A stretch of DNA of 64,000 nt from Lamellibrachia satsuma (Eukaryota > Annelida > Polychaeta > Sabellida > Siboglinidae): assembly GCA_033239005.1 (NCBI GenBank), contig BSQZ01000103.1, positions 986,001-1,050,000 on the forward strand, read 5' to 3'. Shown one piece after another: positions 63,101 through 64,000 of the stretch. The notes below the pieces were generated by a model. It had not been told where the DNA came from. It searched no databases and saw only the letters and a list, made by a program, of their open reading frames with translations. The position numbers and the translations under genes were made by a program. How positions within the stretch are numbered: the first letter of the stretch is position 1; every line of letters begins with the position of its first letter.

Positions 63101-64000
63101 TCGGTATACAATCTTAATGTTGTCAACATAAGGATGGAAAGTAGTGTTAAGTGGTGGCTATTAGCATTGCAACCTCGCAACTAACATAAAACCTTCGAAT
63201 AGAAAGACTGAAGGACGGGTAGTAGCAAAAGTTAAAGGACAGAACGCATCGGTTACAAGTAATTCGTATTATTGCGCAGAATTACACCGAATGAACAAAA
63301 TGTCCTATAATTGTGTAAATGAAACCAGAGTCAATAGGTTTAAAAAGGAATTCCCAGACATAGATGTGGTCTTAGCGGGAGACACATAGTTCAACAACTG
63401 TGGATGCCATAAGCTATCCTTGTCCACAGGCCATGTGGATTGTCTTCATATGGAAGACAACATTTCTAAACCTAACAAACTCGAGTTATGATGTAGCACA
63501 CACATTATTATAACTATGACACATATATTAACCCTGCCTGTTGGAAACCGATCATTCGGGTACAGTATTATTCTACCTCCGACACATGTAGATGTTGTCG
63601 TCTTAGCTAGACAGACGCCGCGCTTGTCCGCATGGCCTCCCGGCCCCATGTACGTAACATTTGCACTCGTCTTACCTAGACAGACGCCGCTCTAGTCCGC
63701 ATGGCGTCCCGGCTCCAGGTACGTAACATTTGCACTCGTCTTACCTAGACAGACGCCGCTCTTGTCCGCATTGCCTCCCGGCTCCATGTACGTAACATTT
63801 GCACTCGTCTTACCTAGACAGACGCCGCTCTAGTCCGCATGGCCTCCCGGCTCCAGGTACGTAACAATTGCACTCGTCTTACCTAGACAGACGCCGCTCT
63901 TGTCCGCATTGCCTCCCGGCTCCAGGTACGTAACATTTGCACTCGTCTTACCTAGACAGACGCCGCTCTTGTCCGCATGGCCTCCCGGCTCCAGGTACGT
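44956..64000 (-). CDS. RIM: RIM-like gene: PDZ, C2A and C2B, multi-exon, 5' part outside window
   Basis: RIM is an active-zone scaffold that tethers synaptic vesicles and calcium channels; it has a zinc finger, PDZ, C2A and a C-terminal C2B. On the minus strand I read a PDZ C-terminal half (62957-62837), a basic linker (57943-57858), three C2A exons (57256-57087, 56019-55926, 55252-55128), linkers (51632-51461, 49320-49212, 47673-47600) and three C2B exons (46463-46353, 46009-45867, 45183-44956). Every exon has GT-AG borders and the phases agree within the C2A and C2B blocks. Support for RIM over synaptotagmin or Piccolo: PDZ-C2-C2 order, WNG in the PDZ, both C2 domains lacking the calcium-binding Asp set, KKKTxVAR and WYKLF in C2B, and termination soon after C2B. 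Still missing: exons between PDZ and 57943, one between 51461 and 49320 (phase 0 to 1), and everything upstream. Confidence 0.75.
45184..45866. other. RIM-like intron with CA/CGCG microsatellite
   Basis: Contains a cacacgtacgcgcgcgctcg / cacgcacacacac patch at 45315-45362; otherwise AT-rich. Confidence 0.6.
45867..46009 (-). CDS. RIM: RIM-like exon: core of C2B
   Basis: 143 bp, acceptor TGACAG, donor CAG|GTAAAT, phase 1 in and 0 out. TYVKTHLLVNGKRLKKKKTQ then VARCSCNPVYDVKLKYTA: the C2 polybasic strand (KKKKT) and NPVYD, as in RIM C2B (KKKTKVAR..xPLY). The SDPY calcium-loop Asp/Pro are replaced by D-T. Confidence 0.85.
46010..46352. other. RIM-like intron
   Basis: Short intron between C2B exons, no other feature. 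Confidence 0.6.
46353..46463 (-). CDS. RIM: RIM-like exon: start of C2B
   Basis: 111 bp, acceptor TTTCAG, donor CCTG|GTACGT, phase 1 in and 1 out. DADIKLAFAVSKGKLEVHVI then SVQGLPLTSSGHE: first two strands of a C2 domain (GDIxLxFxxxxGxLEVxVI). The phase-1 G joins AT of the next exon to make Asp before TYVK. Confidence 0.8.
46630..47395 (+). pseudogene. hAT-type (ZMYM/52K-repressor-like) transposase relic in RIM intron
   Basis: Plus-strand pieces in shifting frames: TALGYLEENGDGKVRRYLSI near 46860-46915, FIITLVTVEHV, then TTTIAQLQQESADTTVWNAF, PSQYWMRAVYVSFVNHSLQE and LDTRLLAAQNHHVAQYL. This order matches the middle and C-terminal part of invertebrate hAT-related proteins of the zinc-finger MYM/TTF type. 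Several indels and an intronic antisense position show it is a dead insertion. Confidence 0.65.
47600..47673 (-). CDS. RIM: RIM-like exon: linker immediately before C2B
   Basis: 74 bp, acceptor AAACAG, donor CGAG|GTACGT, phase 2 in and 1 out, compatible with the next exon. Reads MDDDTNLGPGQIVPKCSR; the LGPGQIV element resembles the conserved GLGPAQLV just before C2B of vertebrate RIM proteins (from memory). Confidence 0.65.
47674..48365. other. RIM-like intron
   Basis: No supported gene. Strong donor-like sites on the minus strand (ACG|GTAAGT near 48003 and TCAG|GTGAGT near 48334) might belong to small unverified exons; the latter would end a 19-codon frame with C-x2-C spacing. Confidence 0.35.
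48366..49155. repeat. 53-bp minisatellite, ~15 copies, in RIM-like intron
   Basis: The unit gattgcgcaggacagacgtt.. is 53 bp. Left copies mostly carry gtgatcag and agattgcg, right copies gtgctcag and agactgcg, so variants are regionally grouped. The three overlapping plus frames through it (CGILDTVLRGQ, WNTGHCAQGAK, VEYWTLCSGG) are artefacts of a 53-bp period. Confidence 0.97.
49212..49320 (-). CDS. RIM: Candidate RIM-like linker exon
   Basis: 109 bp, acceptor TCGACAG, strong donor GAAGA|GTAAGT, phase 1 in and 2 out (2 out fits the 47673 exon). Reads VFHSVLLNPLVNGRRISSSS then RTSSVVTSELTRHIE, a Ser/Arg-rich linker as in RIM. Because the previous known exon ends in phase 0, one more exon must lie between 51461 and 49320. 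Confidence 0.45.
49321..49884. other. RIM-like intron, no other feature
   Basis: AT-rich intronic sequence; nothing else recognised. Confidence 0.4.
49885..49989. repeat. 21-bp minisatellite, 5 copies
   Basis: The unit ggtgagtacttgggtcaatat repeats at 49885, 49906, 49927, 49948 and 49969. It is frame-neutral and reads as a GEYLGQY heptapeptide repeat on the plus strand; each unit also contains GGTGAGTA, a donor-like string. No gene context on the plus strand. Confidence 0.96.
49990..51460. other. RIM-like intron, no other gene seen
   Basis: Contains a cacgcacgtacgcacgc patch near 50545-50580. A missing RIM linker exon (phase 0 to 1) is expected somewhere in 49.3-51.4 kb but I could not find it convincingly. 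Confidence 0.35.
51461..51632 (-). CDS. RIM: RIM-like exon: end of C2A and Pro/Ser-rich linker
   Basis: 172 bp in the most GC-rich stretch of the window; acceptor ACTTTCAG, donor CCGC|GTAAGT, phase 2 in and 0 out. It completes the C2A ending (..AVWYS) with LFDHDENIGPPPTSSLGQAV, then a Gly/Ala-rich stretch and SCVSRANSSRSAR. Phase match with the 55252-55128 exon and the continuous 57-codon frame are the evidence. Confidence 0.7.
51633..52048. other. RIM-like intron
   Basis: Intronic sequence between the linker exon and the CR1 3' end; nothing else seen. Confidence 0.5.
52049..54828 (-). mobile_element. CR1-clade LINE, 5'-truncated, intact 872-codon pol frame, in RIM intron
   Basis: Minus strand, same direction as the host gene. 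The open frame runs from 54753 (open without Met to about 54826) to the stop at 52135. It starts inside the endonuclease (IIGITESW, catalytic Glu) and keeps GDFNHGHIQWNS and NSDHNQIHF. The RT has NIIPLFKKGSRNKSENYRPV, motif A YLDFQKAFDKVPH, motif B SGVPQGSVLGPILF and motif C LKFADDTKLF, all intact, followed by the CR1 C-terminal domain (RRATKMIPELRDLSYEERL, FSQRTINEWNKL). ORF1 and the first part of the endonuclease are missing (5' truncation near 54828, a normal outcome of target-primed reverse transcription). The 3' end (tttaacaagatttgcc on plus) is shared with the copy at 40261. The absence of any stop over 872 codons indicates a recent insertion. Confidence 0.95.
54829..55127. other. RIM-like intron with poly-G run
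   Basis: Contains a (G)9 run near 54948. The CR1 5' junction lies at its left edge. Confidence 0.5.
55128..55252 (-). CDS. RIM: RIM-like exon: C2A C-terminal strands
   Basis: 125 bp, acceptor CTTTCAG, donor ACAG|GTTTGT, phase 0 in and 2 out. MQCRSLEVVLWDSLANNSPM then FLGEVVLDLNQTHFSDDAVW: the LEVxxWD strand, FLGEV and the DDxxWY end of C2A. The second Asp of the WDxD calcium loop is replaced, consistent with a calcium-independent C2 such as RIM C2A. Confidence 0.9.
55253..55925. other. RIM-like intron
   Basis: No other feature. The phrase gtgtggtcgt(g/t)gacacattgg is duplicated at 55270-55310. Confidence 0.5.
55926..56019 (-). CDS. RIM: RIM-like exon: C2A middle strands
   Basis: 94 bp, acceptor TCTTGCAG, donor CAAG|GTAAGT, phase 2 in and 0 out. 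EFESFRTQTVMFNNEPRWSE then TFAYHDMSWNK: the RTxTVxxNxxPxWxxxFxY signature of C2A domains. Phases match both neighbours exactly. Confidence 0.9.
56020..57086. other. RIM-like intron with purine-rich and CG-rich patches
   Basis: Contains a GGGAGGGAGA purine patch at 56180-56290 and a (CG)n/(CGCA)n patch at 56354-56385. No supported gene. Confidence 0.5.
57087..57256 (-). CDS. RIM: RIM-like exon: start of C2A
   Basis: 170 bp, acceptor CTGCAG, donor TCAAA|GTACGC, phase 0 in and 2 out. GGKLAMVIRHDLTTATLTLK then VSRAAEIPYRPGTDKEL and CFVQIYVLPKS: strands 1-3 of a C2 domain (GxLxVxIxxDLxxxxLxVxVxxAxxLPxR, YxLPxxS). The calcium-binding Asp of SDPYVK is absent (LPCCFV). Confidence 0.9.
57257..57857. 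other. RIM-like intron
   Basis: No other feature seen. Confidence 0.5.
57858..57943 (-). CDS. RIM: RIM-like exon: basic linker before C2A
   Basis: 86 bp, acceptor GCTGCAG, donor ACAG|GTAGAA, phase 1 in and 0 out (fits the C2A start exon). ITRKRNVSRRRSKRHLPMSL: a polybasic linker. The exon before it must end in phase 1 and is not found. Confidence 0.6.
57944..59858. other. RIM-like intron, no other gene seen
   Basis: Linker exons between PDZ and C2A should lie between here and 62.8 kb; I found none with confident borders. Confidence 0.4.
59859..59960. repeat. (CACG)n(CA)n microsatellite
   Basis: About 100 bp of acgc then ac repeats, beside the GAGTAC-repeat block. Confidence 0.97.
59978..61980. 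mobile_element. Possible non-autonomous DNA transposon bounded by GAGTAC repeats
   Basis: GAGTAC-rich stretches lie at 59984-60030 (four copies) and 61885-61975 (about three GTACTC then six GAGTAC), with none between. Clustered short subterminal repeats at both ends of a 2-kb segment are typical of hAT-like elements that bind their transposase there. No terminal inverted repeat or target duplication is evident, and the interior has no recognisable transposase. Tentative. Confidence 0.3.
62217..62703. repeat. Compound (CA)n microsatellite, ~490 bp
   Basis: About 190 bp of pure CA, then three related blocks in which cgcacgca and acaaacaaacgcacgcacgc interrupt the CA run (62456-62700), evidently a duplicated compound unit. 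Long His/Thr and Cys/Val frames through it are artefacts. Confidence 0.98.
62837..62957 (-). CDS. RIM: RIM-like exon: C-terminal half of PDZ
   Basis: 121 bp, acceptor TCTCCAG, donor AAAAG|GTGTGT, phase 1 in and 2 out. EEIIQWNGQSLVNATYETTR then SIVAGETSDTVEVMLMPTK: the GDEIxxWNG turn, the A-T-xEE helix and the last strand of a PDZ domain. The W-N-G in place of V-N-G is a RIM feature (GDEVLEWNG, from memory). Confidence 0.8.
62958..63598. other. RIM-like intron inside the PDZ domain
   Basis: Roughly 1 kb intron (63951 to 62958) that includes the 69-bp array at its 5' side. The rest has no supported feature. Confidence 0.5.
63599..64000 (-). repeat. 69-bp minisatellite made of PDZ exon end plus splice donor, ~5.8 copies
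   Basis: Units start at 63599, 63668, 63737, 63806, 63875 and 63944 (cut by the window edge). On the minus strand each unit reads LEPGGHADKSGVCL and then a donor CTAG|GTAAGA; in the leftmost unit the donor is CTAG|CTAAGA. The encoded sequence is the PDZ segment expected directly before EEIIQWNG of the 62957 exon, and its phase (1) fits. Units at 63668 and 63806 carry TAG in place of AAG in the coding part (GAC-TAG), alternating with intact ones. So an exon/intron boundary has been tandemly multiplied. Confidence 0.9.
63952..64000 (-). CDS. RIM: RIM-like PDZ exon end (right-edge, partial)
   Basis: The outermost unit of the 69-bp array has an intact coding part and an intact donor at 63951-63950, phase 1 out. 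Joined by the donor to the 62957 exon it gives GVCLG|EEIIQWNG with the canonical PDZ spacing. The exon continues beyond the window. Any other intact unit (63737 or 63875) might be the one used instead. Confidence 0.5.
   Translation of the reverse strand, partial: RTWSREAMRTRAASV

Follow-up and report, generated by a model that had tools for sequence, protein, structure and literature searches.

A minisatellite that repeats an exon end and its 5' splice site in a RIM-like gene

The right edge of the window, the whole 64,000-nucleotide stretch that was analysed, is occupied by a minisatellite whose minus-strand unit combines the end of a PDZ exon with the 5' splice site that follows it. We think it quite likely that this array is an intronic minisatellite of the 'mirage' type known from amphioxus, situated in a RIM-like gene; it would have originated by slippage or exchange, its parent exon would lie upstream, past the right edge of the window, and the first donor would be used, leaving the rest as decoys.

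Repeat unit and splice donors

Analysis with TRF gave a 69-bp period with 5.8 readable copies, 94% matches and no indels, the units being arranged head to tail (Table 1). The array reaches the right edge of the window, past which the sequence is N. Comparison with a paralogous exon on contig C62 (the window lies on C103) resolves the minus-strand unit into the final 64 nt of the PDZ exon and the opening GTAAG of the intron, which bears out the original prediction that each unit is an exon end plus its 5' splice site. The word GTCTAG occurs six times on the minus strand at a spacing of exactly 69 bp. The donor is intact (TAG/GTAAGA) in five of the six copies; the leftmost reads TAG/CTAAGA, the mutation already noticed in the original prediction. 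The 'six competing donors' are thus five in the readable part, the sixth being dead and copies past the edge uncounted. The unit length is indeed a multiple of three (69 = 3 x 23), and the in-frame TAG that alternate units were said to carry is present in two of the six readable units, 3 and 5 as numbered from the right edge.

Table 1. Features of the RIM-like gene in the window. A slash marks the splice junction; units are numbered from the right edge.
Feature	Positions	Strand	Remarks
69-bp tandem array	63598..64000	-	5.8 readable copies; TRF and sequence
Unit 1	63947..64000	-	54 of 69 nt inside window; frame open; donor TAG/GTAAGA intact
Unit 2	63878..63946	-	frame open; donor intact
Unit 3	63809..63877	-	TAG in frame; donor intact
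Unit 4	63740..63808	-	frame open; donor intact
Unit 5	63671..63739	-	TAG in frame; donor intact
Unit 6 (last)	63602..63670	-	donor lost (GT to CT); then ACGACAAC, transition to unique intron
Remainder of intron	62958..63597	-	3' end TTTTCTCCAG
Exon B, next PDZ exon	62837..62957	-	GEEIIQWNGQSLVNATYETTRSIVAGETSDTVEVMLMPTK; donor AAG/GTGTGT
C2A part 1	57083..57268	-	collinear with contig C62; alignment limits, not exact splice borders
C2A part 2	55920..56024	-	collinear with contig C62; alignment limits
C2A part 3	55115..55264	-	collinear with contig C62; alignment limits
C2B part 1	46351..46476	-	collinear with contig C62; alignment limits
C2B part 2	45861..46025	-	collinear with contig C62; alignment limits
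C2B part 3	45028..45186	-	collinear with contig C62; alignment limits

The paralogous exon

Outside the array, the unit has one match in its own assembly (91% over 101 bp, E 5e-32), and this match is the end of a PDZ exon in the paralogous gene on contig C62. The 117-nt exon found there contains the unit sequence and ends in it, in the same phase and before the same next exon; the parent exon of the window gene would fall in N. Because the junction of exons A and B in the contig C62 gene falls at the place equivalent to the 62957 join in the window, the window join is right in phase, as had been predicted. The contig C62 exon is trailed by one decayed second copy (28 bases comparable), whose junction is identical to that of the window array. 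The remainder of the window intron has no alignable match in the contig C62 intron.

The reading of the unit as PDZ coding holds as well, since the contig C62 pair of unit and exon B scores 33.3 bits (E 6.6e-8) against a Pfam PDZ cut-off of 23.2. The same pair from the window gene reaches 20.3 bits, below the cut-off, and exon B alone (39 aa) matched no Pfam family. Several units do show plus-strand splice signals, from which the strand might have been misread, the plus-strand unit being a 39-nt mini-exon (TTACCTAG/ACAG...CTCCAG/GTACGT). We regard this as extremely improbable, as the other match in the assembly is the minus-equivalent exon end, codes for PDZ and has a collinear gene around it.

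Proof comes from the match to the paralogous exon and not from the donor motif by itself. Among 99 minisatellites with a period of 20-300 in 284 kb, a strong donor motif was present in one, the window array, compared to approximately 1.1 expected by chance, so that this small sample gives no sign that such arrays are common here. Same-strand partial exon copies within 3 kb of 23 segments (12 from contig C62, 11 from C103) were searched for with low-complexity sequence masked, and none was found at E 0.01; matches starting inside the segment or up to 20 bases from it were also masked, which hides the known contig C62 copy.

Gene identity

The gene appears to have the architecture of a RIM (regulating synaptic membrane exocytosis) protein, a scaffold of nerve terminals, with a FYVE_2 zinc finger, a PDZ domain and two C2 domains, and we infer that a single transcript carries all of these pieces. 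Joined pieces from C103 matched FYVE_2 (2.1e-8) and, for C2A and C2B, the C2 family (E 2.2e-11 and 3e-15, respectively), and the domain order is collinear between the C103 and contig C62 genes. This RIM-like domain set, assembled from exons common to both paralogs, agrees with the earlier description of a synaptic-type gene. The best matches of single domains are mixed: the PDZ domain matched APBA1 best in one search and KIAA0559 in another, with RIM2/RIM1 near, synaptotagmin-1 ranks ahead of RIM1 for C2B, and the zinc finger is closest to rabphilin-3A. RIM-II is a known class of the RIM family (PMC7939481, in part).

It was the comparison with the contig C62 paralog that settled the C2 content of the gene. 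Pattern searches for C2 motifs by regular expression returned nothing usable, and a Pfam scan of 158 minus-strand open frames gave C2 matches at E 0.012 (one of 66 frames) and 8.7e-5 (one of 92 frames). The same scan also returned an integrase and weak unrelated matches. There was no match to NCBIfam for one open frame or to Rfam over 284 kb, and a search for relatives in a large protein collection gave one candidate and none at E 0.001.

The presence of the gene in two copies, with the C103 parent exon in N and clear donors absent at some of the compared segments, would also be expected if the parent copy had been lost, leaving an array without a functional exon in a decaying duplicate of the contig C62 gene. 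We consider this very unlikely. Ten C103 segments are in frame relative to contig C62 with no stops on the C103 side; the contig C62 side has one stop, close to where the ZnF2 alignment ends. Synonymous sites are unchanged in 210 of 301 conserved codons, six of the 11 C103 segments have a donor at the expected end (at least 7/9 consensus bases; 6/9 for C2A1), and the acceptor and donor of exon B are both good.

Host lineage

The original prediction took the array as a hint of amphioxus. This origin was set aside because the Hox cluster of the assembly looks spiralian. The cluster contains a KLTGP motif, which we take to be Lox5, a UbdA-type peptide, presumably of a Lox2/Lox4-like member, and a further member that we assume to be Post2-like. 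These Lox5-, Lox2/Lox4- and Post2-like members make a spiralian host most probable. A search of the assembly for GFP, which has 16 genes in Branchiostoma floridae (PMC2679011, in part), gave no match, which is weak evidence as the search had no positive control; the same applies to mollusc-type haemocyanin (PF14830), which also had no match. A search of the assembly for COX1 was empty, and thus gave no mitochondrial marker.

Origin and growth of the array

The word GACGA begins 65 nt before the donor in the paralog's exon and recurs at position +5 of its intron, a separation equal to the 69-bp period, and in the window array the intron still opens with GACGA once the final unit has ended. Slippage or unequal exchange between these words could have produced the first tandem copy. 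Since other 5- and 6-base words are also common to the exon and the intron start, GACGA is a plausible starting point and not a proven one. Further exchange, partly by two-unit (138-bp) steps, may then have enlarged the array: mismatches are fewer at lag 138 (8/264) than at lag 69 (18/333), and units 2 and 4 differ at one site and units 3 and 5 at two, which points to two-unit growth.

Eight sites vary among the six copies, and seven lie in the 64 bases that derive from the exon. All seven alter the residue or create a stop, whereas single changes made at random would be synonymous in approximately 25% of cases. This hints weakly that the units drift like non-coding DNA, weakly because by simple arithmetic 0/7 synonymous would arise by chance approximately 13% of the time.

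One unlikely, though conceivable, extension is that the exon end is a duplication hot spot, at which the 69-bp step recurred in, or was converted between, two diverged RIM-like paralogs with otherwise unalignable introns; the array would then be a length-variable PDZ splice switch in a spiralian nervous system, and the contig C62 copy its decayed counterpart. The paralog pair itself shows two conditions at once: one gene has an array, and the other a decayed copy that shares its junction.

Relation to known arrays

A 1995 report by Turri in Nucleic Acids Res. is said to describe a minisatellite with multiple splice donor sites in a human interferon-induced gene (6-16, also G1P3/IFI6). Like it, the window array offers several donors to one transcript; judging by the title of that report, several donors of the human minisatellite are apparently in use, unlike those proposed here.

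The kinship with amphioxus intron/exon minisatellites claimed in the original prediction is supported by the mirages described there, in Adh3, the globins BflGb6 and BflGb9, and others, with units of 10-72 bp (Adh3), 150-160 bp (BflGb6) and 157 bp (BflGb9) (PMC3087553, in part). As in the mirages covered by those excerpts, the 69-bp unit crosses the exon-intron boundary and AG/GT is kept in many units (here five of six); as in BflGb9, it is the 3' boundary of the exon that is repeated (PMC3087553). An authentic exon at the array end would fall in N at the window locus; in contig C62 the exon precedes the one decayed copy. In contrast to the mirages in the excerpts, the host is apparently spiralian, the gene is RIM-like, and the same boundary and junction are duplicated in two paralogs. 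The cephalochordate host, a trait of the published mirages and not of their definition, is not shared here.

In lancelet PGBD5, a different gene in a different phylum, 60- and 108-bp tandem repeats lie at 5' and 3' splice sites, and re-sequencing data spoke against an assembly error (PMC3902484, in part). Human segmental-duplication genes have minisatellite-sized internal tandem repeats at exon-intron borders, with possible novel introns; there paralogs were compared with transcripts, and an intronic array built from a single exon end is not described in the excerpt of that paper (PMC2812944). In amphioxus, mirage-type arrays have been discussed as sequences from which new introns might arise (PMC3087553, in part). 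In the papers covered, such arrays are described mainly from amphioxus, and an apparent spiralian case suggests that the process is not confined to a single lineage; among the titles listed from open-licence literature, none indicated a mirage-like array in a spiralian.

Donor choice

Most likely, the spliceosome takes the first donor met by the parent exon and splices the later units out with the intron, which would yield a normal protein. Splicing now and then at the next donor would insert an in-frame copy of 23 residues, and from unit 3 onward any donor chosen would bring in a stop codon and give a dead message. An exonised unit had been predicted to insert 23 residues into a PDZ loop; the 23 residues in frame stand, but they would rather form a second copy of the segment before LGEEII. 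If several donors were used, the array could be a splicing switch, giving RIM-like isoforms with none, one or more extra 23-residue PDZ copies together with stop-bearing messages that lower output, and repeat number would tune the isoform mix between individuals. Five of six donors are intact, no stop interrupts the frame in what can be read of units 1 and 2, and a typed two-unit peptide retains a PDZ score (23.7 bits). We nevertheless doubt that a switch operates, since nonsense in two of six units and residue changes at seven of seven sites suit drift and not use, and the amphioxus Adh3 and globin arrays are said to leave regular splicing undisturbed (PMC3087553, in part), as are those of Adh and TnC cited in the PGBD5 paper (PMC3902484, in part).

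Returning to the use of the first donor with the others as decoys, structural hiding of the decoys is not supported, because the array RNA is predicted to fold with no unusual stability (z -0.90; of 100 shuffled sequences, 20 do equally well). The five intact donors share one sequence and so carry no mark of their own that would set the first apart, and the array is a natural experiment in how the spliceosome picks among identical donors in a row.

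The array and its paralogous exon

The minus strand at the right end of the window contains GTCTAG six times at a spacing of exactly 69 bp (units 1 to 6, counted from the right edge). The original prediction of up to six competing donors comes down to five in the readable part: GTAAGA follows directly in five copies, and the leftmost has CTAAGA, the mutated donor noted there. Translated in one frame, the unit yields the 23 residues K-T-S-A-N-V-T-Y-L-E-P-G-G-H-A-D-K-S-G-V-C-L-G, and the frame is continuous across the array apart from an in-frame TAG in units 3 and 5 (2/6), the alternate-unit stops of that prediction. 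The predicted fold of the array RNA is ordinary (z -0.90).

The bases immediately right of the window edge are N, and the counterpart of the parent exon was read in a paralogous gene on another contig, C62. Among the best-scored candidates in the 735-Mb, 279-contig assembly, the array used as query had a single match outside itself, at C62:3741449-3741549, with 91% identity over 101 bp (E 5e-32). There the unit aligns to the final 64 nt of an exon plus GTAAG, the first five bases of the intron, in agreement with the proposal that it combines an exon end with its 5' splice site. This exon joins the next C62 exon in the same phase as at window exon 62957-62837, bearing out the phase fit claimed for 62957. 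The two C62 exons joined match the PDZ domain at 33.3 bits (cut-off 23.2). By sequence, the best solved relatives of the pair are KIAA0559 (which we take to be piccolo), APBA1, RIM2, InaD-like protein and RIM1; for the shorter window version APBA1 was the best match and RIM1 reached just E 0.0077.

Features of the window and of contig C62
Feature	Location	Strand	Remarks
69-bp tandem array	window 63598-64000 (right end)	minus	5.8 copies, 94% matches, no indels
Counterpart of parent exon	C62		117 nt, ends in unit sequence; acceptor CATCTTCAG, then GGCGTGG...TGTCTAG, donor GTAAGA
C2B duplicates	C62, about 61.3-64.1 kb and 124.4-127.1 kb of 210-kb stretch		near-equal matches to window exons
58-bp unit arrays, same unit	window 700-1515, 14469-14595, 15065-15245		14.1, 2.2 and 3.1 copies
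904-residue open frame	window 52138-54849	minus	has relatives in C62 and lies between C2A and C2B exons
(AC)n-type repeat	window 62216-62705		about 490 bp, directly downstream of exon B (62957-62837) on the minus strand
Long 46-bp and 53-bp minisatellites	window 41674-43545 and 48360-49156		latter between C2A and C2B exons

A RIM-like gene

We compared open frames from the window and from the flank to its right with a 210-kb stretch of C62. The gene lies on the minus strand in the window and on the plus strand in C62, with the same segment order. A helix and two zinc-finger segments, all three located in the right flank (L003) past the run of N, come first; the PDZ exons follow, then three segments of C2A, a short linker and three of C2B. 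Joined alignment pieces matched FYVE_2 (2.1e-8) and C2 twice (2.2e-11 and 3e-15). RIM proteins are laid out as zinc finger, PDZ, C2, C2, and piccolo has parts of this in common. Sequence similarity by itself does not point to RIM alone: synaptotagmin-1 is a better match to the C2B piece than RIM1 is, and the zinc finger piece matches rabphilin-3A. PMC7939481 describes a second class of RIM, RIM-II, as broadly conserved among animals and of unknown synaptic role.

A second copy in the paralog

The C62 intron starts with GTAAG-ACGAGTGCTGTTGTTACTTACCTGGAGC, a second copy whose first base is the same as in the window copies and which breaks off without its donor. Over its first 28 bases, 24 equal the C62 exon copy (counted by eye); beyond it, the window and C62 introns share matches of 7 to 9 bases only. 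Elsewhere, ten segments shared by both genes have 1105 of 1494 positions identical (74%), and units 2 to 6 agree with the C62 exon end at 56 to 59 of 63. Synonymous differences among conserved codons number 91/301 in the other segments, 1/17 in units 2 to 4 and 1/15 in units 5 and 6 (Fisher p 0.029 for 1/17, a comparison picked post hoc with the data already seen). On these figures, either the C62 intronic copy postdates the gene duplication, or exchange with its exon or the other gene kept it alike. The junction shared by both paralogs may reflect recurrence at the same site, inheritance or interlocus conversion.

Within C62 (stretch L004, 5006-5060), inspection by eye shows 9 possible base pairs, one of them G-U, between the donor CTAGGTAAG and CTTACCTGG in the decayed copy. 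The donor's predicted mean unpaired probability in a 120-nt fold is 0.09, against 0.13 to 0.63 for the array donors in similar folds; on this model the true C62 donor might be partly hidden by the pairing.

Probable origin and growth of the array

GACGA begins 65 nt upstream of the C62 exon's donor and recurs at intron position +5, an offset of 69 bp; it also opens the window intron after the last unit. Such a pattern is expected if a tandem duplication arose between two short direct repeats. GACGA is a plausible starting point, not a proven one, because the exon and the intron start have further 5- and 6-base words in common.

Eight sites vary over the six copies; seven are exon-derived, all residue-changing or stop-making, and the eighth destroys the last unit's donor. 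Mismatches amount to 8/264 between units two apart versus 18/333 between neighbours, and units 2 and 4, like units 3 and 5, are near-identical. The simplest reading is enlargement in two-unit blocks with the stop mutation already present. The variation, small in number, looks like drift in non-coding DNA.

Predicted splicing

The exon would be spliced at the first donor past its end, with later units treated as intron. Use of the second donor would add an in-frame 23-residue repeat, and skipping up to unit 3 a stop codon. Since the array donor, TAG/GTAAGA, matches 7 of 9 positions of the consensus, within the 6 to 9 of other clear donors of both genes (some segments gave no clear donor), position rather than donor strength is the ground for choice. 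Splicing at amphioxus arrays is reported as undisturbed in PMC3087553 and PMC3902484, and by this analogy the later units are most likely decoys rather than a splice switch.

Known arrays and lineage

Amphioxus tandem repeats spanning intron-exon boundaries are called mirages in PMC3087553, which places on record the amphioxus minisatellites mentioned in the original prediction; the array has the sequence features that define them. Judging by its title, one paper also records a human minisatellite that has several donors, and with the kind already known the interest is limited. No such array in this gene family or animal branch was among the papers listed in searches of one open-licence library. 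What is new here is that the array sits in another lineage and in a RIM-like gene, with its junction common to two paralogs.

The amphioxus affinity hinted at earlier is strongly contradicted by the Hox-like set on contig C84. Searching the assembly for homeodomains yielded at least 117 matches (150 of 178 candidates scored). Ten lie on C84 at 1.42-2.17 Mb, nine of them Hox-like (1.67-2.17 Mb) and the tenth Gbx-like, judged by motifs. In one Hox-like member the homeodomain is followed by KLTGP, which we take to be the motif of Lox5; two others have an IKxLN peptide and are presumably of the Lox2/Lox4/UbdA kind, and another is presumably Post2-like. Antp-like and Post1-like members were absent among the ten read, the match list being a lower bound. 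By these motifs the animal would be a protostome and most probably belongs to the spiralians. A search of the assembly for GFP found nothing, which is weak taken alone; Branchiostoma floridae has 16 GFP genes according to PMC2679011.

Other repeats nearby

The 46-bp and 53-bp minisatellites of the window contain no strong donor motifs. The 904-residue frame looks like a reverse transcriptase of the CR1 kind that includes an endonuclease part, and a mobile element may carry the 58-bp unit. In the C62 gene (stretches L004 and L010 onward), the part encoding C2B appears twice, in inverted orientation, about 60 kb apart.
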